Below the pieces are notes generated by a model that was given only the letters and a program-made list of their open reading frames with translations, searched no databases and was not told where the DNA came from. From NCBI RefSeq assembly GCF_024519435.1, contig NZ_JALJRZ010000002.1, positions 488,646 to 552,645 of the forward strand: DNA of 64,000 nt, read 5' to 3'. Below are positions 3-16,350 of the stretch, piece after piece. Numbering within the stretch: position 1 is the stretch's first letter; each line of letters begins with the position of its first letter. A program made the translations under genes and the position numbers. The DNA is from Terrabacter sp. Ter38 (GTDB lineage Bacteria; Actinomycetota; Actinomycetes; Actinomycetales; Dermatophilaceae).

Positions 3-512
3 ACCGCCGACATCATCTACCAGCTGGGCGCCCTCTCGGCGGTGGCCCAGGTCGAGGGCACCGACGTCGCCTACGTCAAGCCGCACGGCGCCCTCTACAA
101 CGCGGTCGTCCACCACGAGGCGCAGGCCAGGGCGCTGGTGGATGCCGTCGTGGCGGTGGACACGTCGCTGCCCGTCCTCGGTCTGCCCGGCAGCCTCGTG
201 CTCGAGCTCGCGAGGGACGCGGGGCTGCGCGCCGTCACCGAGGCGTTCGCCGACCGCGGCTACACGCCGGACGGCCGTCTGGTCCCGCGCACCGAGCCCG
301 GCGCGGTGCTCCACGACCCCGTCGAGGTGGCGGCACGCGTCGTCCGGCTCGCGCGGGAGGGCCTCGTGACCGCCGTCGACGGCACCGACGTCGAGGTGCG
401 TGCCGAGTCGGTGTGCATCCACGGCGACACCCCGGGCGCGGTCGCGATGGCACAGGCCGTGCGCGTGGCGCTCGAGCGGTCCGGCGTCGAGATCCACCCC
501 TTCGCGGGCTGA
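3..512 (+). CDS. pxpA: 5-oxoprolinase subunit A (LamB/YcsF family), 5' truncated by window edge
   Basis: The reading frame is open from base 3, so the gene begins upstream of the window; 169 codons and the stop are visible. Seen: YQLGAL followed by VKPHGALYN, the hallmark of the LamB/YcsF family, and near the C-terminus CIHGDTPGA, also typical of the family. Known role: PxpA works with PxpB and PxpC in ATP-dependent opening of 5-oxoproline (pyroglutamate) to glutamate in the cytosol. The next gene, a PxpB-PxpC fusion, starts 2 bases after this stop, so the set is co-transcribed and probably translationally coupled. Family members are about 250 residues, so roughly the first third is missing. 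Confidence 0.93.
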
Positions 513-514
513 GC

Positions 515-2197
515 GTGGAGGCCCGCCTGCTGCCGATGGGCGGCGCAGCACTGCTCGTCGAGGTGGCCGACACCGATGCCGCCCTCGCCCTGCGTGCGCA
601 CCTGGCGTCGCTCGTCGAGCGCGCCACGGGCGTGTGGGAGGCCGTCGACCACCTCGTGGCCGGGGCCCGCACCGTGCTCGTCGTGCTCCGGGACGCCCGA
701 GGGAGCTCGGACGTCGGGCGGGAGTGCCTCGCCGAGGCGACAGGTCTCACGGTGGCGGTGGCGCCGCCGGAGGACGTGGCCGCAGTCATGGTCGAGATCC
801 CGGTGCGCTACGACGGGCCCGACCTCGACGAGGTCGCCCACCTCACCGGACTGACCCGCGACGCGGTGGTCCGCGCCCACACCGGCACACCGTGGCGGGT
901 GGGGTTCGGGGGCTTCGCGCCCGGCTTCGCCTATCTCGTCGACGGCGACGAGCGTCTGCGCGTGTCGCGTCGTAGCGAGCCCCGGAGCCGCGTCCCTGCC
1001 GGATCCGTCGCTCTCGCAGGCGATTTCAGCGGCATCTACCCCCAGGACTCTCCCGGCGGGTGGCAGCTCATCGGCACGACCGACGCCGTGATCTGGGACG
1101 TCGACCGTGACCCGCCCGCGCTGCTCGCGCCGGGCACGTCGGTCCGCTTCGTCGACGCCGGCCAGACCCCGTCGGGCGGCCCCGTGGCCCCGGCCACCTC
1201 ATCGGTCACGGGGACGGATGGGACGACGAGACCCCTCGACGGTGGTGGAGGTCGAGAGGGTGGGACTGACGAGGCTGCGCCACTCGAGGGTCTGGCAGGT
1301 CGGGGCGGTCGCGGTCTGGAGGTGCTCGCCACGGGACCGCTCACCCTCGTCGAGGACCTCGGCCGCCCGGGTCTCGCCGACGTGGGCGTGGGCCGCTCCG
1401 GGGCGGCCGACCCCACGGCATACCTCCTCGGTCTGCGGCTCGTCGGGCACCTGCTCGACCCCCACGAGCCGAGCGGGCCGGCGCCCGCGTCGCTCGAGGC
1501 CACCCTCGGCGGGCTCTCGGTGCGCGCCCACGGCGACCTCCTCGTCGCGCTCACGGGCGCGCACTGTCCCGCTGACGTCGACGGCAGGCCGGTCCCGCAC
1601 GGCGCCCCTCACGCGCTGGTCGACGGTGCCGTGCTCACCCTCGGCGCCCCTCCTGCCGGTCTGCGCACGTGGCTCGCGGTGCGCGGCGGCATCGCGGTCG
1701 CGCCGGTGCTGGGCTCGCGCTCGACCGACACGCTGGCTCGGGTGGGCCCACCGGTGCCCGCCGTGGGTGACGTCCTTCCAGTCGGGTCGCCGCCGCGGAC
1801 GTTCCCCGTCGTCGAGGTCGCACCCCATCGTGCCGTCCCGAAGGGTGAGGTCGTGCTCGAGGTCGTCCCCGGCCCCCGTGCCGACTGGTGCCACCTCACC
1901 GGTGTCGACGAGACCTCGTGGTCGGTCTCCTCGCGTAGCAACCGCGTGGGAATCCGCTTGGAGGGCAAGCCGATCCAGCGACTGCCCACGTATGCCGACC
2001 ACGAGCTCCCGAGCGAGGGGATGGTCCCCGGAGCGGTGCAGGTGCCACCCGGTGGCGAGCCCGTCGTGTTCCTCGCGGACCATCCCGTGACCGGCGGCTA
2101 CCCCGTCGTCGCCGTGCTCACTCCGCGAGCCAACGCGCTCGCCGCCCAGCTGCGCCCCGGCCAGCAGGTGCGGCTCAGGTGGTCGCGCGGGGGCTGA
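515..2197 (+). CDS. pxpBC: 5-oxoprolinase subunits B and C fused in one polypeptide
   Basis: Starts at GTG 515, two bases after the pxpA stop; the frame is open upstream but that part is only an antisense-like extension over pxpA. 560 residues. The N-terminal ~210 residues are PxpB/KipI-like (MGGAALLVEV near the start, then GFGGFAPGFAYL). A Gly/Asp-rich linker of about 40 residues follows, then a PxpC/KipA-like domain (LVEDLGRPGLADVGVGRSGA, then SNRVGIRLEG and a C-terminal DHPVTGGYPVVAV). Known: PxpB and PxpC form the carboxyltransferase-like part of prokaryotic 5-oxoprolinase; fused forms exist, often annotated as urea-amidolyase-related. No frameshift is seen across the linker. Confidence 0.9.
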   Translation: MEARLLPMGGAALLVEVADTDAALALRAHLASLVERATGVWEAVDHLVAGARTVLVVLRDARGSSDVGRECLAEATGLTVAVAPPEDVAAVMVEIPVRYDGPDLDEVAHLTGLTRDAVVRAHTGTPWRVGFGGFAPGFAYLVDGDERLRVSRRSEPRSRVPAGSVALAGDFSGIYPQDSPGGWQLIGTTDAVIWDVDRDPPALLAPGTSVRFVDAGQTPSGGPVAPATSSVTGTDGTTRPLDGGGGREGGTDEAAPLEGLAGRGGRGLEVLATGPLTLVEDLGRPGLADVGVGRSGAADPTAYLLGLRLVGHLLDPHEPSGPAPASLEATLGGLSVRAHGDLLVALTGAHCPADVDGRPVPHGAPHALVDGAVLTLGAPPAGLRTWLAVRGGIAVAPVLGSRSTDTLARVGPPVPAVGDVLPVGSPPRTFPVVEVAPHRAVPKGEVVLEVVPGPRADWCHLTGVDETSWSVSSRSNRVGIRLEGKPIQRLPTYADHELPSEGMVPGAVQVPPGGEPVVFLADHPVTGGYPVVAVLTPRANALAAQLRPGQQVRLRWSRGG

Positions 2198-2201
2198 GCC
2201 C

Positions 2202-3350
2202 TCAGGCGCTCCGTGCCCCGGTGCCGGGTTCCGGCTCGCGTCGCACTCCGGAGCGCCAGAACGACACCTGCTCCGTGGCCTCCGGGGCGATGACCGCAGT
2301 CGGGCGCCCGACGGGCAGGGCCGGCGCCGCGGGACGCACCGGGAGGATCATCGCGACGTCCGCACCGCCCCACGGAGAGACCCCGAGCTGGACCCACCCG
2401 CCGCGTCGCGTCGCGACGTCGCGGACGAGGGAGAGGCCGAGCCCGGTCTGGGAGAGGTCGTCGCGCACGCCGTCGAGCACGCCGCTCGGGAGGTCCTGGG
2501 CTGCGGCCGAGCGCAGCATGTCGGTGGTGAAGCCCCGCCCCGAGTCGGCGACCCCGAGCGCGATGGCGCCGCGCATCGGGCGCGCGTAGAGCAGGACCGT
2601 GTCGTCGTCGTGCCCGGTGTAGCGCAGCGCGTTCTCGATGAGGGTGTCGAGGCAGGCCCGCAGCCGCTCACCGGAGCAGTGGAGCGTGAGCGCCGACGAC
2701 TCGACCTTCCAGTTCCGCTGCGCGACGGCCGACCACCGCTCGGCCGTCTGGTGCAGCACCGAGTCGATCTCGACCTCGGTGACCTCGAGATCGGACCCGA
2801 CGCGCATGCTGCGCACGAGCCGCTCACACACCCGGGTGAGCCGCTCGAGCTCCTCGTCGACGACCTGGAGGTCGGCGAGGTCCTCACCGGGCGGGGTCCG
2901 GTCCATGAGCATCTCGAGGTAGCCGCGGGAGATCATGAGCGGTGACCGCATCTCGTGCGACGTGCGCAGGGTGAGCAGCTCGCGCATCGTCGAGTCGGCG
3001 CGCTCCCGTGCCGCGTTGACCGTGAGGTCCGACAGCGCCTGCTGACGACGGCGCACGTGCCAGATCATGAGCGCCATGAGCAGGAGCATGAGCGGGATCT
3101 CGGTCGTCTCCTGCCACTCGAGGACGTCCGTCATGACGCGGTTGACGAGGATCGCGCCGGTCACGAAGGTGAAGACGCCGAGCCCGACCCACGTGGACCG
3201 CGGGCTCCACTGCTCGAGGCCGAAGCAGAGCGCGAAGGCCGCCCAGGCGATGTGGTACGGCACCGTCTCGCTGCCCGGCAGCGCGATCATCGCGGCCGAG
3301 CAGAGTGCCGCGAAGACGCTCCAGACGAGGACCAACCGGTGCCGGACCAT
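2202..3350 (-). CDS. Membrane sensor histidine kinase
   Basis: 382 residues. Start ATG at 3350 is chosen because its first base overlaps the stop of the response regulator (TGATG), which couples the two genes. Residues 1-100 hold about four hydrophobic segments with short loops and no large extracellular sensor domain. The H-box is TSHEMRSPL with the phosphoacceptor His near residue 132; the N-box is LIENALRY; DSGRGF and GLGLSLV are the ATP-lid motifs. No HAMP domain is evident. The signal is therefore likely sensed within or at the membrane. It pairs with the adjacent OmpR-type regulator and is transcribed away from the copper-protein island, the obvious candidate target. The signal itself is unknown; copper or oxidative stress is inference from context. 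Confidence 0.88.
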   Translation of the reverse strand: MVRHRLVLVWSVFAALCSAAMIALPGSETVPYHIAWAAFALCFGLEQWSPRSTWVGLGVFTFVTGAILVNRVMTDVLEWQETTEIPLMLLLMALMIWHVRRRQQALSDLTVNAARERADSTMRELLTLRTSHEMRSPLMISRGYLEMLMDRTPPGEDLADLQVVDEELERLTRVCERLVRSMRVGSDLEVTEVEIDSVLHQTAERWSAVAQRNWKVESSALTLHCSGERLRACLDTLIENALRYTGHDDDTVLLYARPMRGAIALGVADSGRGFTTDMLRSAAAQDLPSGVLDGVRDDLSQTGLGLSLVRDVATRRGGWVQLGVSPWGGADVAMILPVRPAAPALPVGRPTAVIAPEATEQVSFWRSGVRREPEPGTGARSA

Positions 3351-4021
3351 CAGGCGTCCTCGTAGAGCCCGTACCCGACGCCGCGCAGCGTCTCGACGGG
3401 GATGTCCTGGCCGAGCTTGGCGCGGAGCCTGCCGACGCACACCTCGACGACGTTGCTGCCCGGGTCGAAGTCGAGGTGCCACACGTCGTGGAGCAGCTCC
3501 TCCTTGTGGCACACCTGGCCGGCGCGTCGCATGAGGTGCGCGAGCAGACTGAGCTCGCGCTCGGTGAGGGACGCGCTGCGCGAACCGAACGTCGCGCGGC
3601 GGCGCCCCACGTCGAGGCGTACGCCGGCCACCTCGAGGAAGCCGTCGTCCGCGGGAGCGCGCGGCGCCCCGACGTTGCGCCGGACGCGAGCCATGAGCTC
3701 GGTCAGGCTGAACGGCTTGGACACGACGTCGACGGCACCGCGGTCGAGCGCCTCGACCCGCGCTCCCACGTCGGTGACGCCCGACAGCACGATCACCGGC
3801 GTCGTCTGCTTGCGCTCCTTGATCGCGTTGAGCACGGCCAGGCCGTTGACCCCGGGCATCACGAGGTCGAGCAGGACGAGATCGACGTCCTTCGACGCGA
3901 GCCGGTCTATGGCGGCGTTGGCCGTTGCAGCGGTCACCACCGAGTGGCCTTGTGACGACAACGACTTCGCCAGCAACGTGCGCACGCGTTCCTCGTCGTC
4001 GACGACCATGACGGTTGCCAT
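3350..4021 (-). CDS. OmpR-family response regulator with winged-helix DNA-binding domain
   Basis: 223 residues from ATG 4021, preceded by a GGGGAGGGG ribosome site; the longer open frame upstream is not used because it lacks family similarity. The receiver domain starts MVVDDEERV, has the phosphorylated Asp at residue 52 (LLDLVMPG) and the switch Lys in SKPFS. The C-terminal winged helix ends VGRLRAKL...VETLRGVGYGLYE, as in OmpR, PhoB and CusR-type regulators. The segment FDPGSNVVEVCVGRLRAKL resembles the CusR/CopR/TcrA branch. It lies divergent to the 4337-18260 island, with an 11-bp phased repeat array in the shared upstream region, so it probably controls both that island and itself (inference). 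Confidence 0.9.
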   Translation of the reverse strand: MATVMVVDDEERVRTLLAKSLSSQGHSVVTAATANAAIDRLASKDVDLVLLDLVMPGVNGLAVLNAIKERKQTTPVIVLSGVTDVGARVEALDRGAVDVVSKPFSLTELMARVRRNVGAPRAPADDGFLEVAGVRLDVGRRRATFGSRSASLTERELSLLAHLMRRAGQVCHKEELLHDVWHLDFDPGSNVVEVCVGRLRAKLGQDIPVETLRGVGYGLYEDA

Positions 4022-4147
4022 CAGAGTGCCCCTCCCCGATCTGTCGCCAAGTATGGATCCGAGCGTGGCGGAGGGAGCGGCAAAAGGGCCTAGAGCGGCG
4101 AAACACGTGGTCGAGACGTGTGCAAACGCTCCCAATTCGGGCGCATT

Positions 4148-4191
4148 CATGACAGGAACATGACGGCGGGCTGGCAGCGGCATGACAGCCA
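4148..4191. promoter_or_regulatory. Four 11-bp phased direct repeats, candidate response-regulator binding array
   Basis: The 315-base gap between the response regulator and the giant secreted protein contains CATGAC at 4148, 4159 and 4181, i.e. spacings of 11 and 22 bases. A degenerate fourth unit (GCTGGCAGCGG) fills 4170-4180, so four 11-bp units sit head to tail on one face of the helix. Read on the minus strand the units contain CTGTCATG, close to the E. coli Pho-box half-site CTGTCAT, and ATGACA also matches half of the CusR/CopR box. OmpR-family regulators bind such tandem repeats. The rest of the gap shows no other clear element; -10/-35 boxes were not identified. Confidence 0.55.
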
Positions 4192-4336
4192 CCTGAGGCG
4201 AAGCCCATGCCGTCGGTGACAGTTGCCTGAGCCGTCGACCCATCTGGGCAGAGCGCCGTCACGGCGCGTGCGACGTTCGCGGGACGACGGGCTCGCACCG
4301 AGCCCTGCAGAGCATCACGTGGGGGTTGCCGTGGAC

Positions 4337-7300
4337 ATGCCAAGGCTGCGTAGGCGTTGCGTCCCGATCATCGCCGGACTGACCGCACTCGCCATCGCCG
4401 GAGTGGCGCAGGTCGGTGGACCGCTGGCAGCAGCGGCCGCCGCACCGAGACCGGCGGTCGCGCCCGCGGCGCCCGCCGCGGCGCCGGCCGCGGCACCGGC
4501 GGTGACCACCCCGACGGGTGGACCCTGCCCGTCGACGACTGCGGCCGGCAAGGGCTGCATCACGCTGACCGTCGCGAGCGCACGTTCGGTCAACACCGGG
4601 CCCGGCTTCGTCCACAAGGGCGAGCACGTCACGGCCTACCAGTGGATGGTCAACGAGGACAGCACCGGCGATCCGGGTACGGCTGACGCGCCGCTCCTCG
4701 ACCGCTGCCTGCCGTCGCGGGCGCCCGGCGGTAGCACGAAGCCGGCCAGCCCCCAAGCAGGCGACCCGACGGAGCCGTATGCCGACAGCTGCCCGTGGCC
4801 GTCGGTGCGGTCCACCTCAGGATTCTCCAAGATCGTGGCGCAGGGCTCCGAAGCCGACCTCGACTCCGCGACGGTCCTCGAGGGTCTGGCCCCCGGCAAG
4901 TACCTCATCTCCGTCACGGCCGACGGCTACAAGATCGACGGCGCGCACTTCACCGTGAAGGCGGGGCTCAAGGGCCTCGTCGACGTCGCGATGCAGCCGC
5001 TGCCCCTGCCGCTCGCCACCATCAAGATCCAGGTCTTCAACGACAACGTCCCCGCGGACGGCACCTACGAGGCCGACGCGGAGCGAGGTCTGTCCGGCTT
5101 CACCGGCAACCTCTCCGACGTCCTCGGGCCTGTGAGCACCGACTACTACGGCAACGCCCTGTGCACCGTCTACCGGCACAACGCCGCCGGTCGGATGACG
5201 TTCGGCACCGACGGCAAGCCGGTCGTCGACACGACCCGCTCCACCGGCAAGTGCACGAGCGACGCCTCGGGCGTCATCACCATCCCCAACCTCGGCCCGA
5301 ACCGCTACGGCGCCACCGTCTCCCCGCCCGCAGGCCAGGCGGGCTGGGTCCAGACGACGACCCTCGAGGGCGGGCACGACCACGACATCTGGGTGCAGGA
5401 GGGCGACACCGGCCTCGACACCGAGTTCATCAAGGGCGCCGAGCCCGTGCCGGCGACCCAGTTCGGCTTCGTCCGCGTCACGGCCATGCCCACGTCGTCC
5501 GCGACCGGCGAGGTCAAGGGCGTCGCCGTCGCCGGCCTGCCCTACATCGGTGGCCAAAACGGCCAGGTCGTCCCCGAGACCGGCTGGGCCGGCTCGAAGT
5601 ATGCCGGCCCGATCGCGTCGCCGTGGGTGGCGCTCTCGGACCTCACCGGCGGAGACGCGGCCGTCTACGTCGGGCGGGGCGCGGCCAACGGCTCCTTCGA
5701 CATCAAGAAGGTCCCGGACGGCACCTACCAGCTGACGATCTGGGACGACGCCCAGGACTACATCCTCTGGAGCTTCAACGTCGAGGTGTCCGGCGGCGAC
5801 CTCGTCGACGTCGGCAACAAGATGCTCGTCGGCTGGTTCACGCACGTGCGCGGCACCGTCTTCGTCGACGACAACGGCAACGGCAAGCGCGACCCGGGCG
5901 AAGCGCCGGTCCCCGGCTTCACCCTCACCGTCCGCGAGCGCGACAACTCGCTCATGGACCAGTACACGAACCTCGTCAACACCGGCGACGACGGTGCCTA
6001 CGACATCAAGGAGGGATACCCGCTCGGCAAGTGGCTCGTCCTCGAGGCGTTCAACACCCGTTACCGCACCACCGGCCTGACCTACCAGGCCGACAACGAG
6101 GACAACCCCACCACCATCCTCGGCGGCCTCGTCGACGTGAACTTCCTGCCGATCATCGGTCTCTCGGGCCGCATCGACTGGGGCGTCGAGCCGTATGCGA
6201 CGAACGAGAACGGCGGCATCGCCGCCACCGTGTCCTACGACGTGACGCGCAACGAGCTCGACCCGGCCGACGCCGTCAGCGAGGACTACCAGCCCGGCAT
6301 CCCCGACGTGAACGTCCACGTCTACGCATCCGTGCCCTGCACGGCCAACACGGCCGAGGACAAGGCGAACGCGTGCCGCCAGGGCAAGGCGATCGTGCCG
6401 CTGTCGGTGCCCAACCCGGCCCACGACACCGACCCCACCGCGCCGGCGACCATCGCGAACCCCGACCCCGAGCGTGGCGCCCTCGTCAAGGGCGCCGAGG
6501 TGCAGGACCACTACCCGAGCGAGGAGTGGGCCCCGCCGCGGGGCTGCACCGCTCGCCAGTGGGACGGCACCGAGCTGACCGACCAGCTCGCCCTGCCCGA
6601 GTCCGGGCCTGACGCGAACAACCTCTGCGTGGAGGCTCCGATGATGGGAGTGCAGGTCGGTCCGTCCGACAACACCCCCGGGGCAGCCGGCCAGACGGTC
6701 AACGGCAACTACGGCTTCGGCGACCTCCCCGCGGGTGACTACATCACCTCGGTCGAGATCCCGACCGACCCGGTCGACGGCAAGCCGATGTACCAGGTGA
6801 CCCGCGAGGAGGACGTCAACGTCTTCGACGGCGACAGCTACCTGGCCCAGGAGAACTTCCCGCCGACCGTGGCCGAGGCGGCCTCCGACGGCCCCGGCAC
6901 CGGCAACGACCCGCTGCCCCCGACCCAGCCCCCGTCGCAGGGAGCCGGCATCATCTCGGGCTGCGCGGGCGCGCTCCACACCGTGCGCGTCACGAACCCG
7001 GCCTTCCTCGACGGCGGCGGCAGCCCCTTCGAGGGCCAGGACCGGCCCCTGTGCGACTCCAAGCTCATCACCGTCCGCAGCGGTCAGACCGTCGCCCCGA
7101 ACTTCAACCTCTACACGCCCGTCCCGATCCCCACGCACTTCTGGGGCCTGACGATCAACGACCTCGGCCTGTCCCTCGACAAGCGGAGCGCCAACTACGG
7201 CGAGGCCCAGGGCCTGCCCAACGTCCCCGTCGGCCTCTACGACTACAGCGGACGCCTCGTCGACACGACGCACACCGACTTCAACGGCTTCTACGAGGCC

Positions 7301-9805
7301 CTCGAGCCCTCGACCGGGACGTACAACTGCCCGGTCCCGGCCGGTCCCTGCCCGAACATGTACCGCTTCACGGGCAACGACCCCGGAGGACCGGGTGACC
7401 CGAACCCGGACTACAACCCGGCCTACCGGACGATCAGCACGAACTTCCAGGGCTGGCCCGGTCTCTACACCGTGACCGACACGGCGCCCACCCAGGCCGC
7501 CGCGACGGTGCTCGCCCCCGGGACCACCGCGTCGAACCCGGCGCGCTGCAACCTCGGCACGACGGACCCGCAGCTGCTCGCCGTGAGCCGGCCGTACGTC
7601 CGGTCCACCGACGCCAGCCGCACCGTGACCATCACGGGCACCGGCTTCGGCGCCACGCGTGGCACCGGCACGGTGACGCTGACGAACAGCGCCGGCACGA
7701 ACATCCCCGTGACGACGTACGGGCCGTGGTCCGACACGAGCATCACCTTCACCGTCCCGGTCTTCACGCCGACGGCGACGGCGCCCCGCGGCGCCCTCAA
7801 GGTCAGCGTCACGAACGCGTCGAAGCGCTCGACGTACAACGGCCTGACCGTCTGGAACCTCGCGGGGCCCCCCGCCTCGGGAGCCTCGACGACCTACAAC
7901 CCGAACGTCGTCGAGGTGGGCCCCGGCAAGACGTACTCCTCCGTCCAGGCCGCGCTCGAGGCCGCCACGCCCTCCTCGACGAGGCGCCACTGGCTCGTCG
8001 TCGTCTGGCCGGGCACCGCGACCGCGCTCAACCCGCGCGGTGAGTACAACGAGAACCTCCTCGTCCACCACCGCGTCGCCATCCAGGGCGTCGGTCCGGG
8101 CGGCTTCACGACCAATGCCGACGGCTCCCAGCGGTGGGTGCCCGGCTCGATCATCGACGGGTCCGGGTTCAGCCCCGACCTGCCCGGTGGCACGGCGTGG
8201 ATCACCCGGCTCGGCACGCTGACCTACAGCGGCGAGCTCGACGTGCCCGACGCCGCGACGATCACCGTGCTCGACGACCCGGCTCGCGCCTCCGTCAACG
8301 ACACGGCATACCCCGTCGCCATCGACGGGCTGCAGGTGACCGGCGGCTCGCAGTCGGACTTCGCCGGCAACGTCAACGTGCTGACCGGCGGCGTCACGAC
8401 GCCGTACGGCGCCACGGGCGCGCTCGTCACCCAGGGTGGCGGCATCTACCTGCACAACAACAACCGCAGCGTCCGGATCACCGACAACGTCATCGTCGGC
8501 AACAGCGGCAGCCACGGCGGCGGCATCCGCGTGGGCACGCCCTACACGGGTGACAACCGCAACTACGACACCCTCATCGCCGACAACCAGGTGCTCAACA
8601 ACGGTGGGACCAACCTCGCCGGCGGCATCGGGCTCTTCACCGGCAGCGACGGCTACAAGGTCCTGCACAACGCCATCTGCGGCAACTTCTCCGCGGAGTA
8701 CGGCGGCGCGATGACGGCCTTCGGCTACATGTCGAACGCGGGTGGCAACGACGGCGGCACCATCACCGGCAACACCATCTGGTTCAACAGCTCCTACGAC
8801 GAGGGTGGAGCCGTGATGCTCGCCGGCGAGCTGCCGTCGAGCCCCATCGGCCTCAGCCCCGGCACGGGCGCGGCGACGATCGACGCCAACGTCATCGACG
8901 CCAACCTCGCGAGCGACGACGGCGGCGGCATCCGACTGCTCCAGGTGGCCGGCACGCACGTCACCAAGGCCGATCCGCAGACGATCACCATCACGAACAA
9001 CACCGTCACCAACAACGTGTCGGCCCACGAGGGTGGCGGCATCGCCCTCGACGACGCCCCGTTCGTCAACCTCGTCGACAACACCGTCGCGGGCAACATG
9101 ACGACGGCGACCGCGGTCACCTCGGACGGTCTCCCGGCCCCTGCGGGCCTCGCGACCGGGCCGAACAGCGACCCGCTCATGGCGAGGCTCAACAGCGGCG
9201 GCCTCGGTGCCTTCGCCGTCATCAAGGTCACCGGACAGTCGACCTTCAGCAAGCCGGTGCTCCTCGACAACGTCTTCAACGACAACCGCGCCGGCACCTT
9301 CATCGGCGGCTACGTCTACGGCATCGGCGGCACCCTGCCCGACGGGACGACCAACTCGGTCGACACGTGGGACATGGCGGTCGTCGGCGGCCCCGGCACG
9401 CTCCACCCTGTGGGCGGCGTCATCCAGACGACGACGGGCACCGACGGCGGAGTGGGCGTCACCGTCAGTGACACGCCCGGCTTCAAGGACCCGACGCCCG
9501 ACCTGGCGGTCACCGTCCTGGCCGCACGCACCTTCCCGGCCTTCCGCGAGGCGGCCATCGTCACGGCCCTGCTGCCCCCGCGCCTGCGGGCGGACTACCA
9601 CCTCTCGGGGACGGCAGCCACGGCATACGCCAAGGGCCGCGGGACGACGACCGTCACCTACGGCAGCCAGACGGTGCTCGGGGCCACCTTCCCGTGGACC
9701 GCGACCGTCAACGCCGCCGCGCGTGACATCGACAACCAGGCGAGGCCCACCGGCACCGGCACCACCCGGCGATACGACTCCGGCTCCGACCAGTACTACC
9801 CGTAA
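4337..9805 (+). CDS. Giant secreted protein: SdrD-B-like repeats, IPT/TIG domain and parallel beta-helix
   Basis: 1822 residues from ATG 4337; GTG 4331 is an alternative start better spaced from GGGGG at 4321. A Sec signal peptide (RLRRR, then a hydrophobic stretch ending AAAAAA) precedes an Ala-Pro-rich linker. Residues ~80-700 carry carboxypeptidase-regulatory/SdrD-B-type modules, for example FVDDNGNGKRDPGEAPVPGF near residue 510 and repeated 'TYQL' and 'GDYI' folds. An IPT/TIG-like module (VTITGTGFGATRGTGTV) lies near residue 1095. A right-handed beta-helix of the pectate-lyase superfold runs from ~1195 (VGPGKTYSSVQAALEAA) to ~1750, with GGGI turns and Asn ladders. No catalytic residues could be assigned. 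It heads the MCO island and ends without a sortase motif or C-terminal membrane helix. The role could be matrix, scaffold or polymer binding. Confidence 0.85.
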   Translation: MPRLRRRCVPIIAGLTALAIAGVAQVGGPLAAAAAAPRPAVAPAAPAAAPAAAPAVTTPTGGPCPSTTAAGKGCITLTVASARSVNTGPGFVHKGEHVTAYQWMVNEDSTGDPGTADAPLLDRCLPSRAPGGSTKPASPQAGDPTEPYADSCPWPSVRSTSGFSKIVAQGSEADLDSATVLEGLAPGKYLISVTADGYKIDGAHFTVKAGLKGLVDVAMQPLPLPLATIKIQVFNDNVPADGTYEADAERGLSGFTGNLSDVLGPVSTDYYGNALCTVYRHNAAGRMTFGTDGKPVVDTTRSTGKCTSDASGVITIPNLGPNRYGATVSPPAGQAGWVQTTTLEGGHDHDIWVQEGDTGLDTEFIKGAEPVPATQFGFVRVTAMPTSSATGEVKGVAVAGLPYIGGQNGQVVPETGWAGSKYAGPIASPWVALSDLTGGDAAVYVGRGAANGSFDIKKVPDGTYQLTIWDDAQDYILWSFNVEVSGGDLVDVGNKMLVGWFTHVRGTVFVDDNGNGKRDPGEAPVPGFTLTVRERDNSLMDQYTNLVNTGDDGAYDIKEGYPLGKWLVLEAFNTRYRTTGLTYQADNEDNPTTILGGLVDVNFLPIIGLSGRIDWGVEPYATNENGGIAATVSYDVTRNELDPADAVSEDYQPGIPDVNVHVYASVPCTANTAEDKANACRQGKAIVPLSVPNPAHDTDPTAPATIANPDPERGALVKGAEVQDHYPSEEWAPPRGCTARQWDGTELTDQLALPESGPDANNLCVEAPMMGVQVGPSDNTPGAAGQTVNGNYGFGDLPAGDYITSVEIPTDPVDGKPMYQVTREEDVNVFDGDSYLAQENFPPTVAEAASDGPGTGNDPLPPTQPPSQGAGIISGCAGALHTVRVTNPAFLDGGGSPFEGQDRPLCDSKLITVRSGQTVAPNFNLYTPVPIPTHFWGLTINDLGLSLDKRSANYGEAQGLPNVPVGLYDYSGRLVDTTHTDFNGFYEALEPSTGTYNCPVPAGPCPNMYRFTGNDPGGPGDPNPDYNPAYRTISTNFQGWPGLYTVTDTAPTQAAATVLAPGTTASNPARCNLGTTDPQLLAVSRPYVRSTDASRTVTITGTGFGATRGTGTVTLTNSAGTNIPVTTYGPWSDTSITFTVPVFTPTATAPRGALKVSVTNASKRSTYNGLTVWNLAGPPASGASTTYNPNVVEVGPGKTYSSVQAALEAATPSSTRRHWLVVVWPGTATALNPRGEYNENLLVHHRVAIQGVGPGGFTTNADGSQRWVPGSIIDGSGFSPDLPGGTAWITRLGTLTYSGELDVPDAATITVLDDPARASVNDTAYPVAIDGLQVTGGSQSDFAGNVNVLTGGVTTPYGATGALVTQGGGIYLHNNNRSVRITDNVIVGNSGSHGGGIRVGTPYTGDNRNYDTLIADNQVLNNGGTNLAGGIGLFTGSDGYKVLHNAICGNFSAEYGGAMTAFGYMSNAGGNDGGTITGNTIWFNSSYDEGGAVMLAGELPSSPIGLSPGTGAATIDANVIDANLASDDGGGIRLLQVAGTHVTKADPQTITITNNTVTNNVSAHEGGGIALDDAPFVNLVDNTVAGNMTTATAVTSDGLPAPAGLATGPNSDPLMARLNSGGLGAFAVIKVTGQSTFSKPVLLDNVFNDNRAGTFIGGYVYGIGGTLPDGTTNSVDTWDMAVVGGPGTLHPVGGVIQTTTGTDGGVGVTVSDTPGFKDPTPDLAVTVLAARTFPAFREAAIVTALLPPRLRADYHLSGTAATAYAKGRGTTTVTYGSQTVLGATFPWTATVNAAARDIDNQARPTGTGTTRRYDSGSDQYYP

Positions 9806-9924
9806 CCCGCAGACCGGCCCCCGGGGATCCCAGTCACCCCCACTGGAGCCCCCCCGGCGCCCCGGGGGCCAACCCACTCACCACCTGTCCGGCACAGGAG
9901 CCGGACCGACCTCAGGAGCACCTC

Positions 9925-11217
9925 ATGACCGACGAATCACGCTCAGACGCCGCACGGCGCACGGCGGGCTCAGGTCTCGGCCGACGAGCCGTCATGCTGG
10001 GTGGGGCGGGCGCCGTGGGCAGCGTCTTCCTCGGCACGCGCCTCAGCTTCGGACAGCAGGCCCCCCGCCCGACCGTCGTGCAGGCCGCCGCAACGGGCCC
10101 CGCCAAGTCGGTGCACCTGGCCGGCACCGACGGCTGGGTCAGCATGCCGGCCGGCTCGCCCGATGACCTGCCCTTCTTCCCGGACTCGCTCGCACCGTCG
10201 CCCTTCGACACGTACGTCTTCGGCTTCCGTGACGTCACGGGGATGACGGCGACGCAGGTGGCGGCCACGCGCGGGAAGGCGCAGATCTCGGCGCCGATGC
10301 TCGCCTTCGACGAGCTGGACGAGGTCACGATCACGCTGTCCAACCTCGGCCTCGTCATGCGGCCCGACCTCTTCGACGGTCACACGCTGCACTGGCACGG
10401 CTTCGTCAACGCCATCCCGCTCTTCGACGGCGTGCCGGAGCTCTCGCTCGCCGTGCCGATCGGGCGCGACCTGTCCTACTTCTACCGCCCTCGCGACGCC
10501 GGCACGTACATGTACCACTGCCACTTCGAGGACGTCGAGCACGTGCAGATGGGCATGACCGGCATGGTCTTCGTGCGGCCGAAGCAGAACAAGGCGCCGG
10601 TGGCCGGCCACCCGATCGGCACCAAGTACGCGTACAACGACGGCGACGGCAGCACGCGCTACGACCGCGAGTTCGCCTTCATGATCACCGAGCTGTGGTC
10701 GGCCGCCCACTACCGCGACGCCCACATCCAGGTCAGCGACTGGACCGACTACGCGCCGAGCTTCTGGCTGCTCAACGGGCGAGGCTACCCCGACACCATC
10801 GCACCCGCGGGCAATCCTGAGTCGACGTCGGCCGGTCGCCTCCAGTACCAGCCGATCAGCTCGCTCATCACGTGCAACGTGGACGAGACCGTGCTCCTGC
10901 GGCTGTCGAACCTCGGCTACCAGAACCACGCCCTGACGCTCGACAACGTCGACATGCAGGTCATCGCCAAGGACGCCAGCCTGCTCCGTGGTCGCGACGG
11001 ATACACGAACTACCTCGAGACCAACACCGTCGACGTGGGGCCCGGTGAGAGCCGGGACGTGCTCGTCACACCCCACCAGCCCGGCGAGTACCTGCTCTAC
11101 GACCGCAACTACGCCTATCTGGGCAACGGCGGGGGACCCGGCTGGGGCGGCATGATGACCGTCCTCCGCGTCGGCGCGCCCGGCACCTACGGGCCCCAGA
11201 CCCAGCCAAACACCTGA
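9925..11217 (+). CDS. Multicopper oxidase-like protein A: type-1 site and N-terminal half of the trinuclear site
   Basis: 430 residues; AGGAG precedes ATG 9925. The N-terminus (GLGRRAVMLGGAGAVG) is a twin-arginine-type signal, fitting export of a folded copper protein. Two cupredoxin domains. Domain 1 has H156-W-H158-G and YHCHFEDVEHVQMGM, giving H198, C199, H200, H206 and M209/M211, so it holds a possible type-1 copper site plus two of the four HxH pairs needed for a trinuclear cluster. The C199 to H206 spacing is two longer than the usual +5. Domain 2 has NHALTLDN where other MCOs have HPFHLHG, and GWGGMMTVLRV without an HCH motif, so the other half is missing. Protein B downstream supplies the complementary motifs. 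Substrate unknown (metal ion or phenol are options). Confidence 0.88.
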   Translation: MTDESRSDAARRTAGSGLGRRAVMLGGAGAVGSVFLGTRLSFGQQAPRPTVVQAAATGPAKSVHLAGTDGWVSMPAGSPDDLPFFPDSLAPSPFDTYVFGFRDVTGMTATQVAATRGKAQISAPMLAFDELDEVTITLSNLGLVMRPDLFDGHTLHWHGFVNAIPLFDGVPELSLAVPIGRDLSYFYRPRDAGTYMYHCHFEDVEHVQMGMTGMVFVRPKQNKAPVAGHPIGTKYAYNDGDGSTRYDREFAFMITELWSAAHYRDAHIQVSDWTDYAPSFWLLNGRGYPDTIAPAGNPESTSAGRLQYQPISSLITCNVDETVLLRLSNLGYQNHALTLDNVDMQVIAKDASLLRGRDGYTNYLETNTVDVGPGESRDVLVTPHQPGEYLLYDRNYAYLGNGGGPGWGGMMTVLRVGAPGTYGPQTQPNT

Positions 11218-11237
11218 CGAGCCGACGGAGGACGATC

Positions 11238-12578
11238 ATGCGACTCAACCGATCACGACGCCACCCGGGTGACGCGGCGAGTGCCGCGCGCACCCGCCGG
11301 CGCACGGGCATCCTCGCGGCCGTCGGCGCCCTCGTCGCCGCCGTGGCCGTCGGCTCGACCGCCGGCGCCCAGGCCGCGACGTCCGAGGGGCTGCTCTGCC
11401 AGACGGACCCGCAGCAGACCTTCTCGCTCACCGCGCGGACGGGCTACGTCTCGACGCCGGACGGCAACTCGATCTACATGTGGGGCTACGGGATGAGCTC
11501 CGGGCGGTTCCAGCTGCCCGGGCCGGTCCTCTGCGTCACCTCGGGCCAGCAGGTCACCGTCATCCTGCACAACGACCTACCGGAGGCGACCTCGATCCTC
11601 TTCCCGGGCCAGAAGGCGGTCAAGGCGAACGGCAACCCGGCCCAGCCGCAGCTCGACACGGGCGGTTCCCTCACCTCGATGGTCCAGCCCGCCTCGGCCT
11701 CGGGCGGCTCCGTGACGTACACCTTCACGGCCGGCTCGCCCGGGACGTACCTCTACTCGAGTGGCACCGACGTGACGAAGCAGCAGCAGATGGGCCTCTA
11801 CGGAGCGCTCGTCGTGCGCCCCTCGGGTGCGGCCGGGCAGGTCAACGCTCGCGCCGACTCGGCCTTCAACCCGCAGCACGAGTACGTCTTCCTCCTCTCG
11901 GAGATCGACCCCGAGGTGCACCTGGCCGTCGAGCGCGCGCAGCCCGTCGACTGGAGCGCCTACAACGCGCGCTACTACCTCATCAACGGCCGCAGCATGC
12001 CCGACACCCTGGCGCCCAACAACGCCTCGTGGCTGCCGAGCCAGCCCTACGGCGCCCTCGTGCACATCAAGCCGTACGACGCGACGACCAACCCGCTCCC
12101 CGCGGTCATCCGCTACCTCAACGCGGGACGCGGCAGCTACCCCTTCCACCCGCACGGGAGTGACGAACGCGTCGTCAACAAGGACGGCCACGCCCTCCAG
12201 GGCACGAGCGCCACGGCGCCCCAGGACCTGGCCTACCTCAAGTACGACATCGACGTGATGCCGGGCCAGACCGTCGACGCGCTGATGGACTGGCGCGACG
12301 TCGAGCACTGGAACGCGACGACGAACCCGATCCCGACGCAGCTGCCCGTCATCACCGACCAGCTCCTCGTGGGCGCCGACACGTGGTTCAGCGAGAGCCC
12401 CTACCTCGGCACGAAGGGCACCTTCCCGTCGAACATCACCGTGAACAACGAGTGCGGCGAGTACTACCACGTGGCCCACAGCCACGCGCTCCAGCAGGCG
12501 ACCAACTACGGCGCAGCCTTCGGCGGCATGATGACGGTCTTCCGCATCGACCCGCCCGCCGGCTGCCCGACGAGCTGA
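11238..12578 (+). CDS. Multicopper oxidase-like protein B: C-terminal half of the trinuclear site, type-1 ligands lost
   Basis: 446 residues from ATG 11238 (GGAGG upstream), 20 bases after protein A. The signal region RTRRRTGILAAVGALVAAVAVG may be Sec or twin-arginine. Domain 1 lacks copper ligands: SGTDVTKQQQMGLYGALVV replaces HCH. Domain 2 keeps YPFHPHG (H304, H306) and YHVAHSHALQQ (H411, H414, S415, H416), ending FGGMMTVFRI. Against the canonical HPFHLHG and HCHxxxHxxxxM motifs, the type-1 His is Tyr301 and the type-1 Cys is Ser415, while the type-2/type-3 His pairs remain. It is a paralogue of A and C: LINGRSMPDTLAP here corresponds to LLNGRGYPDTIAP in A and LINGKPFP in C. It probably pairs with A (inference). 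Confidence 0.87.
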   Translation: MRLNRSRRHPGDAASAARTRRRTGILAAVGALVAAVAVGSTAGAQAATSEGLLCQTDPQQTFSLTARTGYVSTPDGNSIYMWGYGMSSGRFQLPGPVLCVTSGQQVTVILHNDLPEATSILFPGQKAVKANGNPAQPQLDTGGSLTSMVQPASASGGSVTYTFTAGSPGTYLYSSGTDVTKQQQMGLYGALVVRPSGAAGQVNARADSAFNPQHEYVFLLSEIDPEVHLAVERAQPVDWSAYNARYYLINGRSMPDTLAPNNASWLPSQPYGALVHIKPYDATTNPLPAVIRYLNAGRGSYPFHPHGSDERVVNKDGHALQGTSATAPQDLAYLKYDIDVMPGQTVDALMDWRDVEHWNATTNPIPTQLPVITDQLLVGADTWFSESPYLGTKGTFPSNITVNNECGEYYHVAHSHALQQATNYGAAFGGMMTVFRIDPPAGCPTS

Positions 12579-12589
12579 GGACGACCACG

Positions 12590-15500
12590 ATGACCTCTCG
12601 ACCCAGCCTCCGGCACCGCCTCGGCGTCTCCGCCGTCGCCGCCGCGCTCGCGACCGTGCCCTTCGCCACCACGACTGCGTATGCCGTCTCGTCGACCTCC
12701 GTGGCGCCGTCGGGTTCCGCTGTCGCACCAGCCGTCGCCCCTGCCGCCGCACCCGCGGTTGCACCGGCGGCACCGGTCGGCACGCTGACCCCGAACACGC
12801 CCGGCTGCACCGTCACACCGGCAGCTGCCCCCGACCCGGAGATCGTCGCGTGCGACCTCTGGGCCAAGACGGGGACGAACCAGATTCTCGGACAACCGAT
12901 CCCGATCTGGGGCTACTCGACGACGTCGGGCGGGGCAGCCACCGCGCCCGGCCCCGCCATCATCGCCCGGCAAGGTGACCGGGTCGTCCTGACGCTGCAC
13001 AACGGGCTCGACGAGCCGACCTCGCTCGCCCTGCCCGGGCAGGCCGCTGCATCCATCACCGAGGGTCTGCCCACGGCGGCCGCGACGACCGGCATCGCGC
13101 CGGGAGCGACCGCGCGCTACGTCTTCACGGCCGGGCGCCCCGGCACGTTCCTCTACGAGGCCGGTCACACCTCGGGCGGAGCCCGTCAGGTGGCGATGGG
13201 GCTCGCCGGCGCGCTCGTCGTCCTGGGCGACGGCACGGCCTACGGCCAGACCTACGACGACGAGGCGGTGCTCGTGCTCAGCGAGATCGACCCGGCCCTC
13301 AACGCACACCCGGCGACCTTCGACATGCGCGAGTTCCACCCGGCCTACCGGCTCATCAACGGCAAGCCCTTCCCGTCGAGCGACCCCGTCCCGACCGACC
13401 AGGGCCACACCGTGCTGCTGCGCTACGTCAACGTCGGCTCGGAGCTGCACTCGATGAGCACGCTCGGCGCCGACCAGGTCGTCCTGTCCCACGACGGTCA
13501 CGGCCTCGCGTTCCCGGAGCCCTCCGTCGTCGTGCCGGTCGACCCCGGCGTCAGCGTCGACGCGCTCGTCACCGTGCCCACCGGACCGGAGTCGAAGATC
13601 GCGGTCTACGAGTCCTCGGCGCGCCTCGACAACGCCGGCCAGAGCACGGCCGACCCGCTGTCGGTGGCCTTCGGCGGGATGATGACCTTCCTGGACACCA
13701 ACGCCCCTCCGCCCTCGAGCGACGGCGTGGGCCCCGTCTCGACCGGCATCACGGCAGACCCGAACCCGTCCGACGCCACGGGTCCCGTCACGGTCACCGC
13801 GACCGTGAGCGACGCGGCCACGGGCCACGGCACGGTCAGCCAGGCCGAGTTCGTCGTCGACGACGCGGTCACCGTCGGCGTCGGCAGCGGCGTCCCGATG
13901 ACCGGGACCTGGGGGGTCGAGACCACCACCGTCACTGGCACGATCCCGGCCGTGGCGACCGCGGCGGACTGCGCTGCGCCCGTGCCTCCCGTCGACCTGC
14001 ACTGCCTGACGTCGACGAAGCACACGGTGTTCGTGCGCGGTCTCGACGCCGCCGGCAACTGGGGCGTCGTCGGGTCAGTGATCCTCAACGTCGCCAAGTC
14101 CGGCCCGCAGACCGTCGCGCTCTCGGTGAGCCCGTCGCCCGCGAGTGGCAAGGGAGCCGTCACGGTCAACGCGACCGGGGACGACACCGCGGCCGGGGGC
14201 ACGATCACCGGAGCCGAGTACTTCCTCGGCGCAGCCGCCGGCGCCGACGGCACGGGCCACACGATGAGCCTCAACCGGTCGGCGACCAAGGTCGCAGAGA
14301 CCGGGACCATCCCCGCGGCGGACGTCGCCGGCCTCGGCGAGGGAACGTCGCAGGTGTGGGTGCACAGCCGCAACTCCCAGAACATCTGGGGCCCGGCCGT
14401 GCCCGTCGACCTCACCGTCGACCTCACCGCACCGGCCGTCAACGCTGCGACCGTCGGACCCAACCCGACCAACGGCGTCGTGGGCTCGAAGTCCTACCCC
14501 GGCTACCTCGTGATCTCTGCCGAGCTGCAGGACCGCGACGCCGGCAACGGCCTGCAGAGCAACGTCCTCGCCGGCGAGGCCTTCATCGACCCGACGAGCA
14601 CGGCCCCGACCTTCGGCAAGGGCCTCAGCCTCATCGCCGTCGACGGCGCCTTCGACTCGCCGACGGAGCAGGTCTACGGCCTCCTCCCGCTGACGCAGGT
14701 CAAGGCGATGACGGCCGGTGTGCACCAGGTCTACGTCCACGGCAAGGACGCTGCCGGCAACTGGGGCAGCCTCACGGCGAGCAACGCCCTCGTGCGCCTC
14801 TTCGTCGACAAGACGGCTCCCGTCCTCGGGACGATGACCGCCAGCCCGAACCCGACGAACGGGGCAGCCACGGTCACGCTGGCTGCACCGGTGACGGAGA
14901 CCCCGGACCCGGCATACGTCGGCCCGCGCTTCCAGGGCGCCGAGTTCTGGACCGGCACGACCGATCCCGGCGCCGGCAAGGCCACGCGGGTCCAGGTGAC
15001 CGACTCGGGAACCGGTGTCACGGCGGCGATCCCGCTGACCGGCATCCAGCCCGGAACCGTCCAGTTCAACCTCCGTGTCCAGGACGCGGCGGGCACCTGG
15101 AGCAACGCGTCCGCGGTCACGGTCCAGGTGACCCGACCCAACGCGATCTTCAGCGACACGTTCAACGGCAACTCGCTGTCGACGTGGTCGGCACGCAACG
15201 GTGCGGTCTCGACGAGCCTGGTGGCCGGCATACCGTCCGGCACCGGCAACTACGGCATGGTCGCAACCGGCTCTGGGACCCCGGCGTTCGTCACCGACGA
15301 CACGCCGTCGGCCGAGACGACCTATCACGCCCAGTTCTCGTTCCACCCGAACACCCTCTCCACAGGGACGATCGCCACGACCTGGGTGACCGTCTTCGAG
15401 GGGCGGACGACGGCTGGTCAGGCGTTCGCGGTGCAGTTCCACCGCCAAGGCACAGGCGCCACGGCCGGGCAGCTGCGCATCGTGATGAACCGCAACCTCC

Positions 15501-15757
15501 TCGGTAACTCCACGGGGGCGGCCTACAACCTCCCGGCAGGTGCGCACACGGTCCGGGTCGACTGGGCCCAGGGCGCGAACGGGTCGCTCCGACTGCTCGT
15601 CGACGGCGTCTCGCGGGATCTGCGCACCGGCAACAACACCGGCGCCGCGATGCAGATCCAGTCCGCACGCCTTGGCATCACGGCGGGCACCACGTCGACC
15701 ACGGCGGGCACGGCCTGGTTCGACAGCTTCGTCTCCACCCGGAACAGCATCCCCTGA
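12590..15757 (+). CDS. Multicopper oxidase-like protein C: ligand-poor cupredoxin pair, Ig-like repeats and C-terminal sandwich domain
   Basis: 1055 residues from ATG 12590, 11 bases after protein B; the open frame upstream of 12590 is a shadow of B. A Sec signal (LGVSAVAAALATVPFATTTAYA) is followed by an Ala-Pro linker. Residues ~80-370 are two cupredoxin-like domains with nearly all copper ligands lost (EAGHTSGG and ELHSMS in the ligand positions) but the shared FGGMMTF end. Residues ~380-850 are three to four Ig-like units, two ending AAGNWG. The last ~200 residues (FSDTFNGNSLSTWSARNG onwards) resemble a concanavalin/LamG-type sandwich. It may anchor or organise the A/B oxidase on a polymer or cell surface; catalysis of its own is unlikely. 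Confidence 0.82.
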   Translation: MTSRPSLRHRLGVSAVAAALATVPFATTTAYAVSSTSVAPSGSAVAPAVAPAAAPAVAPAAPVGTLTPNTPGCTVTPAAAPDPEIVACDLWAKTGTNQILGQPIPIWGYSTTSGGAATAPGPAIIARQGDRVVLTLHNGLDEPTSLALPGQAAASITEGLPTAAATTGIAPGATARYVFTAGRPGTFLYEAGHTSGGARQVAMGLAGALVVLGDGTAYGQTYDDEAVLVLSEIDPALNAHPATFDMREFHPAYRLINGKPFPSSDPVPTDQGHTVLLRYVNVGSELHSMSTLGADQVVLSHDGHGLAFPEPSVVVPVDPGVSVDALVTVPTGPESKIAVYESSARLDNAGQSTADPLSVAFGGMMTFLDTNAPPPSSDGVGPVSTGITADPNPSDATGPVTVTATVSDAATGHGTVSQAEFVVDDAVTVGVGSGVPMTGTWGVETTTVTGTIPAVATAADCAAPVPPVDLHCLTSTKHTVFVRGLDAAGNWGVVGSVILNVAKSGPQTVALSVSPSPASGKGAVTVNATGDDTAAGGTITGAEYFLGAAAGADGTGHTMSLNRSATKVAETGTIPAADVAGLGEGTSQVWVHSRNSQNIWGPAVPVDLTVDLTAPAVNAATVGPNPTNGVVGSKSYPGYLVISAELQDRDAGNGLQSNVLAGEAFIDPTSTAPTFGKGLSLIAVDGAFDSPTEQVYGLLPLTQVKAMTAGVHQVYVHGKDAAGNWGSLTASNALVRLFVDKTAPVLGTMTASPNPTNGAATVTLAAPVTETPDPAYVGPRFQGAEFWTGTTDPGAGKATRVQVTDSGTGVTAAIPLTGIQPGTVQFNLRVQDAAGTWSNASAVTVQVTRPNAIFSDTFNGNSLSTWSARNGAVSTSLVAGIPSGTGNYGMVATGSGTPAFVTDDTPSAETTYHAQFSFHPNTLSTGTIATTWVTVFEGRTTAGQAFAVQFHRQGTGATAGQLRIVMNRNLLGNSTGAAYNLPAGAHTVRVDWAQGANGSLRLLVDGVSRDLRTGNNTGAAMQIQSARLGITAGTTSTTAGTAWFDSFVSTRNSIP

Positions 15758-15825
15758 TCCGGTCCCACCTCGTGCCGGGGTCACCTGCCCGTGACCCCGG
15801 CCGGCAGCATCGGAGGGCAGTCCGA

Positions 15826-16350
15826 ATGAGCACCACCACAGCAGTTCCGCCGGTCCAGCCGGCCGGTCCCTCCGGCCCCTCCGCCCCATCCACCCGGACG
15901 GGGCGGGAGGGCCGGGCCAGGGCTGCGCTCGCCGTCGTCGCCGTCCTCGTCGTCGCGGTCCTCGGTCTCCTCGGGGCCCGGGCGCTGCGAGGCGGCGACG
16001 ACCCGGCGCGACCGGTCCCGCACTCGACCGCGATGGAGACGGCCCTCGGCGTCCGCATCTCGCGGGTCGCGGTCGTCGGCGACGGTGGCCTCGTCACCGT
16101 CAGCTACGTCGTCCTCGACGTCGACAAGGCGAGCCGCTTCCAGGCCGACGTCAAGCACCCACCGGTGCTGCGCAGCGAGGCCCGTGACGGCTCGACGAAC
16201 CGCGTCTCGGTCATGCGACAGGGGCACATCAACCGCGCGGGCGCGACGTACTACTTCGTCTACCAGAACACGGGTGGAGCGCTCCGCGCCGGTGAGGACG
16301 CGACGATCGAGTACGGCGGCCTCCGCCTCGAGCACGTCCCGGTGCTGTGA
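15826..16350 (+). CDS. Membrane-anchored extracellular protein of unknown family in the copper island
   Basis: 174 residues; ATG 15826 follows GGAGGGCAG. I do not recognise the family. A Pro/Ser/Thr-rich N-terminus of about 30 residues precedes one membrane helix (RAALAVVAVLVVAVLGLLGARAL), giving an inside-to-outside anchor. The outer ~115 residues look like a beta-sandwich, with scattered possible metal ligands (VKHPPVLR, SVMRQGHINRAG, LEHVPVL). Its stop overlaps the start of the CopC-CopD gene (TGATG), so the two are translationally coupled. A copper-relay or MCO-anchoring role is possible but rests only on this context. Confidence 0.75.
   Translation: MSTTTAVPPVQPAGPSGPSAPSTRTGREGRARAALAVVAVLVVAVLGLLGARALRGGDDPARPVPHSTAMETALGVRISRVAVVGDGGLVTVSYVVLDVDKASRFQADVKHPPVLRSEARDGSTNRVSVMRQGHINRAGATYYFVYQNTGGALRAGEDATIEYGGLRLEHVPVL

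Follow-up and report, generated by a model that had tools for sequence, protein, structure and literature searches.

Two adjacent multicopper oxidase paralogues of Terrabacter that likely share one trinuclear copper cluster, probably within a heterotrimer

Can two neighbouring oxidase-like proteins, neither of which carries a complete copper site, build one active site between them? This question is raised by a stretch of 64,000 nucleotides from Terrabacter sp. Ter38 (contig NZ_JALJRZ010000002.1, positions 488,646 to 552,645; the whole stretch is called hereafter the window), in which two adjacent genes, A and B, encode multicopper oxidase paralogues. The usual way to recognise a multicopper oxidase is by a full set of ligand motifs in a single chain. 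A and B fail this single-chain test and bear generic names where they are named, for example "multicopper oxidase domain-containing protein". An original prediction, made from the letters of the window, proposed that A and B form a hetero-oligomer having together eight cluster histidines and one type-1 copper site. The analysis reported here leaves us rather confident that A and B are complementary halves of a type-C-like oxidase which share one trinuclear cluster, likely in a heterotrimer A:B:C that includes the product of the next gene, C. The relevant features are the following.

9925..11217, + strand: protein A, 430 amino acids (aa), two cupredoxin domains (Pfam Cu-oxidase domains above cut-off)
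10381..10398, + strand: motif HTLHWH of A, with H153 (type-1) and H156 and H158 (trinuclear cluster), aligned to HTIHWHG of 3g5w
10516..10557, + strand: H198-C199-H200...H206...M211 of A, two cluster histidines and the type-1 Cys, His and Met
11238..12578, + strand: protein B, 446 aa, two cupredoxin domains (Pfam; profile alignment to 3g5w and 2zwn)
12147..12155, + strand: H304-P-H306 of B, domain-2 cluster histidines, aligned to H-T-H of 3g5w
12477..12485, + strand: H414-S-H416 of B, domain-2 cluster histidines, with Ser at the type-1 Cys position
12590..15757, + strand: protein C, 1055 aa, a third two-cupredoxin paralogue without copper ligands (Pfam Cu-oxidase_3 above cut-off)

All three genes lie on the same strand, separated by 20 bases (A-B) and 11 bases (B-C), and all three products match Pfam multicopper oxidase models above cut-off. 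In profile matches, the top PDB entry is 3g5w for A, B and C alike. The best PDB relatives of A are 3g5w and 2zwn, which we take to be type-C two-domain multicopper oxidases. The nearest named proteins to A, from Terracoccus/Terrabacter, share 98% identity with it.

Copper-site residues were assigned by alignment. Domain 1 of A holds H153, H156-W-H158, H198-C199-H200, H206 and M211, and in its domain 2 the cluster histidines are replaced by T338/D340 and Y392/R394. B presents the reverse situation: L121/P123 and S174/G176 replace the cluster histidines of domain 1, and domain 2 has Y301, H304-P-H306 and H414-S-H416, with no type-1 site. H304-P-H306 was aligned to domain 2 of 3g5w and 2zwn with 10-12 bits, and H414-S-H416 was aligned weakly (-0.7 bits) to the H-D-H of 2zwn. 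The missing type-1 cysteine in domain 2 of B looks like the normal type-C state, and Ser415 is no oddity, because 3g5w and 2zwn are also without Cys there. Taken together, domain 1 of A and domain 2 of B have eight histidines and one type-1 site, which is what one type-C cluster needs. A check of individual residues, along with the alignment, found the original prediction exact on the residue numbering and domain-1 motifs of A and the loss of its domain-2 motifs, as well as on the lost domain-1 motifs of B, its H304-P-H306 and H414-S-H416, Tyr301 and Ser415.

Conservation of these positions was measured among relatives. A scan of a genome collection with A gave 278 relatives; the best 80 were kept and correspond to 79 distinct loci from Actinomycetota, Chloroflexota, Dormiibacterota, one Methylococcaceae metagenome-assembled genome (MAG) and some unassigned bacteria. 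The window was added in the counts. Rows for B include a second B copy from locus L058 and, from locus L050, both fragments of a disrupted B; rows for C include the second C copy of L058. H153, H156, H158, H198, C199, H200 and H206 of A were each found in 80/80 rows, and M211 in 79/80. For B, H304 and H306 were found in 79/79 rows, H414 and H416 in 78/78. At the lost cluster positions, histidine was found in 0/80 rows for domain 2 of A and in 0/79 or 0/78 for domain 1 of B. The pattern of retention and loss is thus more than chance, since no row departs from the retained cluster histidines and none regains a lost one. Free variation of the histidines on which the original prediction relied was looked for over the window and the 79 loci, and none of them varies. 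C keeps its two-cupredoxin region, but all eight cluster histidines are missing from it: the corresponding positions had 0 or 1 histidine in 72 rows for domain 1 (0/71 at one position) and 0/72 for domain 2.

The positions of the old type-1 site in the second domains behave differently. Position 301 of B is variable (Y in 57, H in 7 and F in 6 of 79 rows), and position 415 is S (41) or N (33) in most of 78 rows and never Cys. The old type-1 histidine position of domain 2 is His in 42/80 rows for A (335) and in 62/72 for C (287). Where His occurs at A 335, B 301 or C 287, the partnering Cys is absent in all.

Do the two halves travel together? B follows A in 77 of the 79 loci, and the exceptions are a contig that ends within a B fragment (L042) and one on which only 181 bases remain (L061). 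The order A-B-C is found in 70/79 loci. In eight of the nine others the contig ends 181 to 2125 bases past A; at L024, C-like pieces are present before the contig end. At L063, a 1014-aa open frame without a match to C follows B and reaches the contig end. Among 119 genomes of the family, A, B and C were each found in the same 13, with the A and B matches adjacent, and 106 had none of them at the thresholds used. A sample of 246 genomes from the phylum was searched for A and B, and strong matches to both occurred in the same three genomes. Two weak matches of that sample, one to A only (G132) and one to B only (G195), were set aside, as their motifs are those of complete ordinary oxidases of the two-domain and the three-domain kind. 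Homologues of A lacking B, which would speak against the proposal, were thus found neither in the 79 loci nor in the 119 family and 246 phylum genomes. Chance pairing of unrelated oxidases was rejected on this co-occurrence.

In a quick tree, A, B and C form three separate clades (support 100, 98 and 100) with broadly similar inner order; it covers 69 proteins, taken from 23 of the 46 loci that have each of A, B and C. Over the 46 loci, evolutionary distances were correlated at 0.86 for A-B, 0.72 for A-C and 0.74 for B-C; a correlation of this kind is to be expected whenever genes are inherited together, and is a weak sign of contact. In L050, B is split over two frames. In L058 (Oscillochloris), an extra B-C pair lies upstream of the A-B-C triad (spans 157-4842 and 9773-14922); any A belonging to this pair would be located past the sequence covered. 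In L051, the triad lies on the Methylococcaceae MAG contig, by horizontal transfer or mis-binning.

The spatial arrangement was explored with AlphaFold models, which gave a predicted template modelling score (pTM) of 0.88 for the A-B chain and 0.86 for the A-B-C chain. The A-B model could be superposed on the single-chain oxidase 6vow over 385/409 residues at 3.2 Å, with A at the start of the matched stretch and B at its end, which places domain 1 of A against domain 2 of B in the model. The predicted packing of these two domains resembles that of domains one and three in a three-domain oxidase, which 6vow would be, judging by its 409 residues. By this indirect check the two halves are not far apart in the model, as the original prediction had it. 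Alignments with errors were not folded: A4 had five A rows out of place, together with its entire set of 20 C single rows, and A9 had 11 misplaced B rows, including the window's own B. The folded alignments omit misplaced rows. A5, checked by identity list alone, is also without the single B row of L051, and A10, checked by script, is also without three A rows (L018, L068 and L075).

Several points weigh against a shared cluster, or against the models as evidence for it. The models are single read-through chains, in which the stops between genes were read as Gly, and they contain no copper. The full joined set was present in only 12/57 alignment rows for AB and 2/54 for ABC, and AlphaFold may have reproduced the homotrimer already described. 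The 6vow superposition is one row of 50; Foldseek aligns 6vow otherwise, with a template modelling (TM) score of 0.55 and a root-mean-square deviation (rmsd) of 13.0, gives TM 0.48-0.50 for three other Thermus laccase entries, and every rmsd that it listed was large. Ceruloplasmin matched the ABC model locally with an E value of 8.7e-43, but at TM 0.21 and rmsd 33 Å. VIA-align of the ABC model gave no well-superposed row across several subunits; its rows lie on C alone or extend wider at poor rmsd. The half-site domain of B is no more conserved than its other domain (mean pairwise identity 55 versus 60%), the values for A being 66% in domain 1 and 55% in domain 2. Finally, no true A-B fusion was found among 120 proteins listed of 1814. 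One of these 120, P0244, does span A and B, but its A-B stretch reads as a shifted frame with B cut short, so that it is likely a frameshift product.

Two further structural matches were handled with caution. The ABC model matched Thermus laccase at TM 0.70-0.73 by target over about 745 columns, which was not counted as support because the match could be to A-B or to B-C. Ceruloplasmin was tried as a template for the ring order without success, its local similarity being high and its TM 0.21-0.30. That the joined chain does not take up ceruloplasmin's linear domain order agrees with a ring order A-C-B, and is not proof of a ring.

Does C belong to the complex? An unlikely alternative is that A and B share a cluster in a complex of their own, for example an alternating A3B3, with C standing apart from it as a surface protein or an anchor. 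C does diverge faster than its neighbours, the mean pairwise identities of its domains being the lowest of the three proteins (48 and 42%, against 55-66% for A and B), and it is without the copper ligand set. In addition, its oxidase-like region is found deep within long open frames in L039 (2585 aa) and L067 (1920 aa), and a good superposition was reached for the A-B model only. On the other hand, C occurs in the same 13 genomes of 119 and follows B in the 70 loci counted above; it keeps a two-cupredoxin region, with 3g5w as its top PDB match, and the A-B-C model has a high predicted score. Moreover, known two-domain oxidases are trimers, in which each cluster is formed by two protomers (PMC13151041). 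C is therefore likely to belong to the same unit as A and B, and the likely assembly, which would have one active site, is A:B:C rather than A:B. The hetero-oligomer of the original prediction, with its eight cluster histidines and one type-1 site, is supported by histidine invariance, co-occurrence and the A-B model, and is likely to extend to C.

It is very improbable that A is a type-1 electron-transfer or nitrite-reductase-like protein without a cluster, with B and C as pseudoenzyme scaffold. The type-1 site of A is complete, and copper nitrite reductases are among the close structural matches. However, a scaffold or electron carrier would not need four invariant cluster histidines in A and four in B, and A has the oxidase pairs H-x-H and H-C-H. 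Copper nitrite reductase (NirK) has at its interface only a mononuclear type-2 copper with three histidine ligands, in contrast to the four plus four cluster histidines here. A acting alone as nitrite reductase or electron carrier was rejected on the invariance of all eight. Equally hard to credit is a reading in which A and B bind metals each on its own, for instance if each formed a homotrimer around some other kind of metal site. In its favour, the proteins are known from sequence and copper-free models; against it, a homotrimer of either would set four histidines facing none at every interface, and the two ligand sets are exactly complementary, co-inherited and docked together in the A-B model.

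The most likely assembly is an obligate heteromeric, type-C-like two-domain multicopper oxidase, probably A:B:C, in which the shared A/B cluster is likely and the place of C as third subunit probable. It would have arisen from an ancestral homotrimer by replacement of the three identical subunits with paralogues, decay at two interface sites and retention of the third. In the assembled enzyme, domain 1 of A would give four cluster histidines and the type-1 site, and domain 2 of B the other four. Electrons would enter at the type-1 copper of A and pass over the Cys199-His198/200 bridge to the cluster, where O2 would be reduced to water. The tail of C, about 680 aa with weak immunoglobulin-like and carbohydrate-binding matches below Pfam cut-offs, may anchor the enzyme.

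The natural substrate might be a metal ion, with Mn, Fe and Cu as candidates; this is a tentative guess. Almost no variation is seen at four further positions of A: E202 and E205, next to the type-1 ligands, and the H-x4-H pair H262/H267. A metal serving as substrate might bind there, close to the type-1 copper, which is again a guess.

Export signals differ between the subunits. A twin-arginine motif with a hydrophobic stretch, searched for by a simple custom pattern and no trained predictor, was found in 79/79 A proteins with enough N-terminus, in 7/78 B and in 3/70 C. A is probably exported folded by the twin-arginine translocation (Tat) pathway, and B and C mostly by the Sec pathway, so that a shared cluster would have to be assembled outside the cytoplasm.

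How does this arrangement compare with known systems? PMC13151041 places the type-1 site of type-C oxidases in the N-terminal domain. A, B and C resemble type C in having two cupredoxin domains per chain, and A alone in having the type-1 site in domain 1, not domain 2. In 3g5w and 2zwn, cluster histidines lie in both domains of one chain. Here A and B have each lost one half-site and three genes replace one: A is without the four domain-2 histidines, B without the four of domain 1 and C without all eight. The type-C rule, by which both half-sites sit on a single kind of chain, therefore fails, which sets this system apart from type C. The A-B model resembles single-chain three-domain oxidases (6vow, 2xu9) in its predicted contact of a first with a last domain, and differs from them in that they are one chain and that their type-1 site is in the last domain, not the first. 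In a fungal three-domain laccase, the T1 and T2/T3 sites lie between domains a and c (PMC10673308).

Six-domain proteins keep at most one cluster, the others having been lost within one chain (PMC3600357). The proposed A:B:C resembles ceruloplasmin and MnxG by its six cupredoxin domains and single surviving cluster; it differs in having three chains where they have one, the window carrying three separate genes, and in that the ABC model gave no linear-order superposition on ceruloplasmin. The Mnx complex (MnxE3F3G) is likewise a bacterial multicopper oxidase of several subunits. Resemblance to known oxidases is limited to MnxG, however, no homologues of MnxE/F are known, and a split cluster is not described for the complex in the part of PMC5622069 available. 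In fungal heterodimeric laccases of the POXA3 type, a small protein of unknown function stabilises the laccase (PMC10741624). They share with the present system a second, different subunit, but pair a laccase with a small protein and not two active-site halves. Searches of an open-access library (subscription papers and preprints lying outside it), judged mostly by the openings of abstracts, brought up no multicopper oxidase with a cluster divided among different gene products.

On balance we favour, with moderate confidence, an ancient family in which the cluster exists only in the heterotrimer: A, a Tat substrate, brings the type-1 site and one half-site, B brings the other half-site and is mostly Sec-exported, C is copper-dead with an anchoring tail, and complementary loss has been fixed in at least two phyla. 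Relatives are many (6896/7997 and 4178/7999 scored candidates at E <= 0.001), and may include ordinary oxidases. If the proposal is true, an extracellular oxidase has gone unrecognised in a group of Actinomycetota and Chloroflexota, and its active site is absent until differently exported chains meet. It would also be a clean natural case of a homotrimer turned into an obligate heterotrimer by complementary loss, in pieces what ceruloplasmin is in one chain. As the export signals differ, copper loading and assembly beyond the cytoplasm are open to direct test.

The genes surrounding the triad in the window are listed below.

2202..4343, - strand: sensor histidine kinase, divergent from the A-B-C cassette, a possible regulator (HisKA/HATPase_c)
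4223..9805, + strand: upstream giant protein, 1860 aa, probably secreted (Pfam: SdrD_B, TIG and weak beta-helix matches)
15772..16350, + strand: 192-aa protein with one hydrophobic segment
16347..18260, + strand: CopC-CopD fusion, predicted copper binding/uptake (Pfam CopC and CopD above cut-off)

A scan of promoters and terminators gave no promoter-like site and four terminator-like sites, versus 3.0 expected. Among the 79 loci, several contigs of which stop short of the neighbour genes, tblastn with the window proteins found the giant in 74, the 192-aa protein in 51, the CopC-CopD fusion in 42 and the histidine kinase in 22. Clustering of open frames gave 74, 58, 39 and 23, respectively. No other electron carrier or metal transporter was prominent among the neighbour clusters shown. 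For the 192-aa protein no Pfam or NCBIfam family was found, and a role as assembly or copper-handling factor is possible. A copper-handling neighbour such as CopC-CopD fits a copper enzyme, to which it may help supply copper. Clustering also placed a family resembling response regulators beside the cassette in 28/79 loci.
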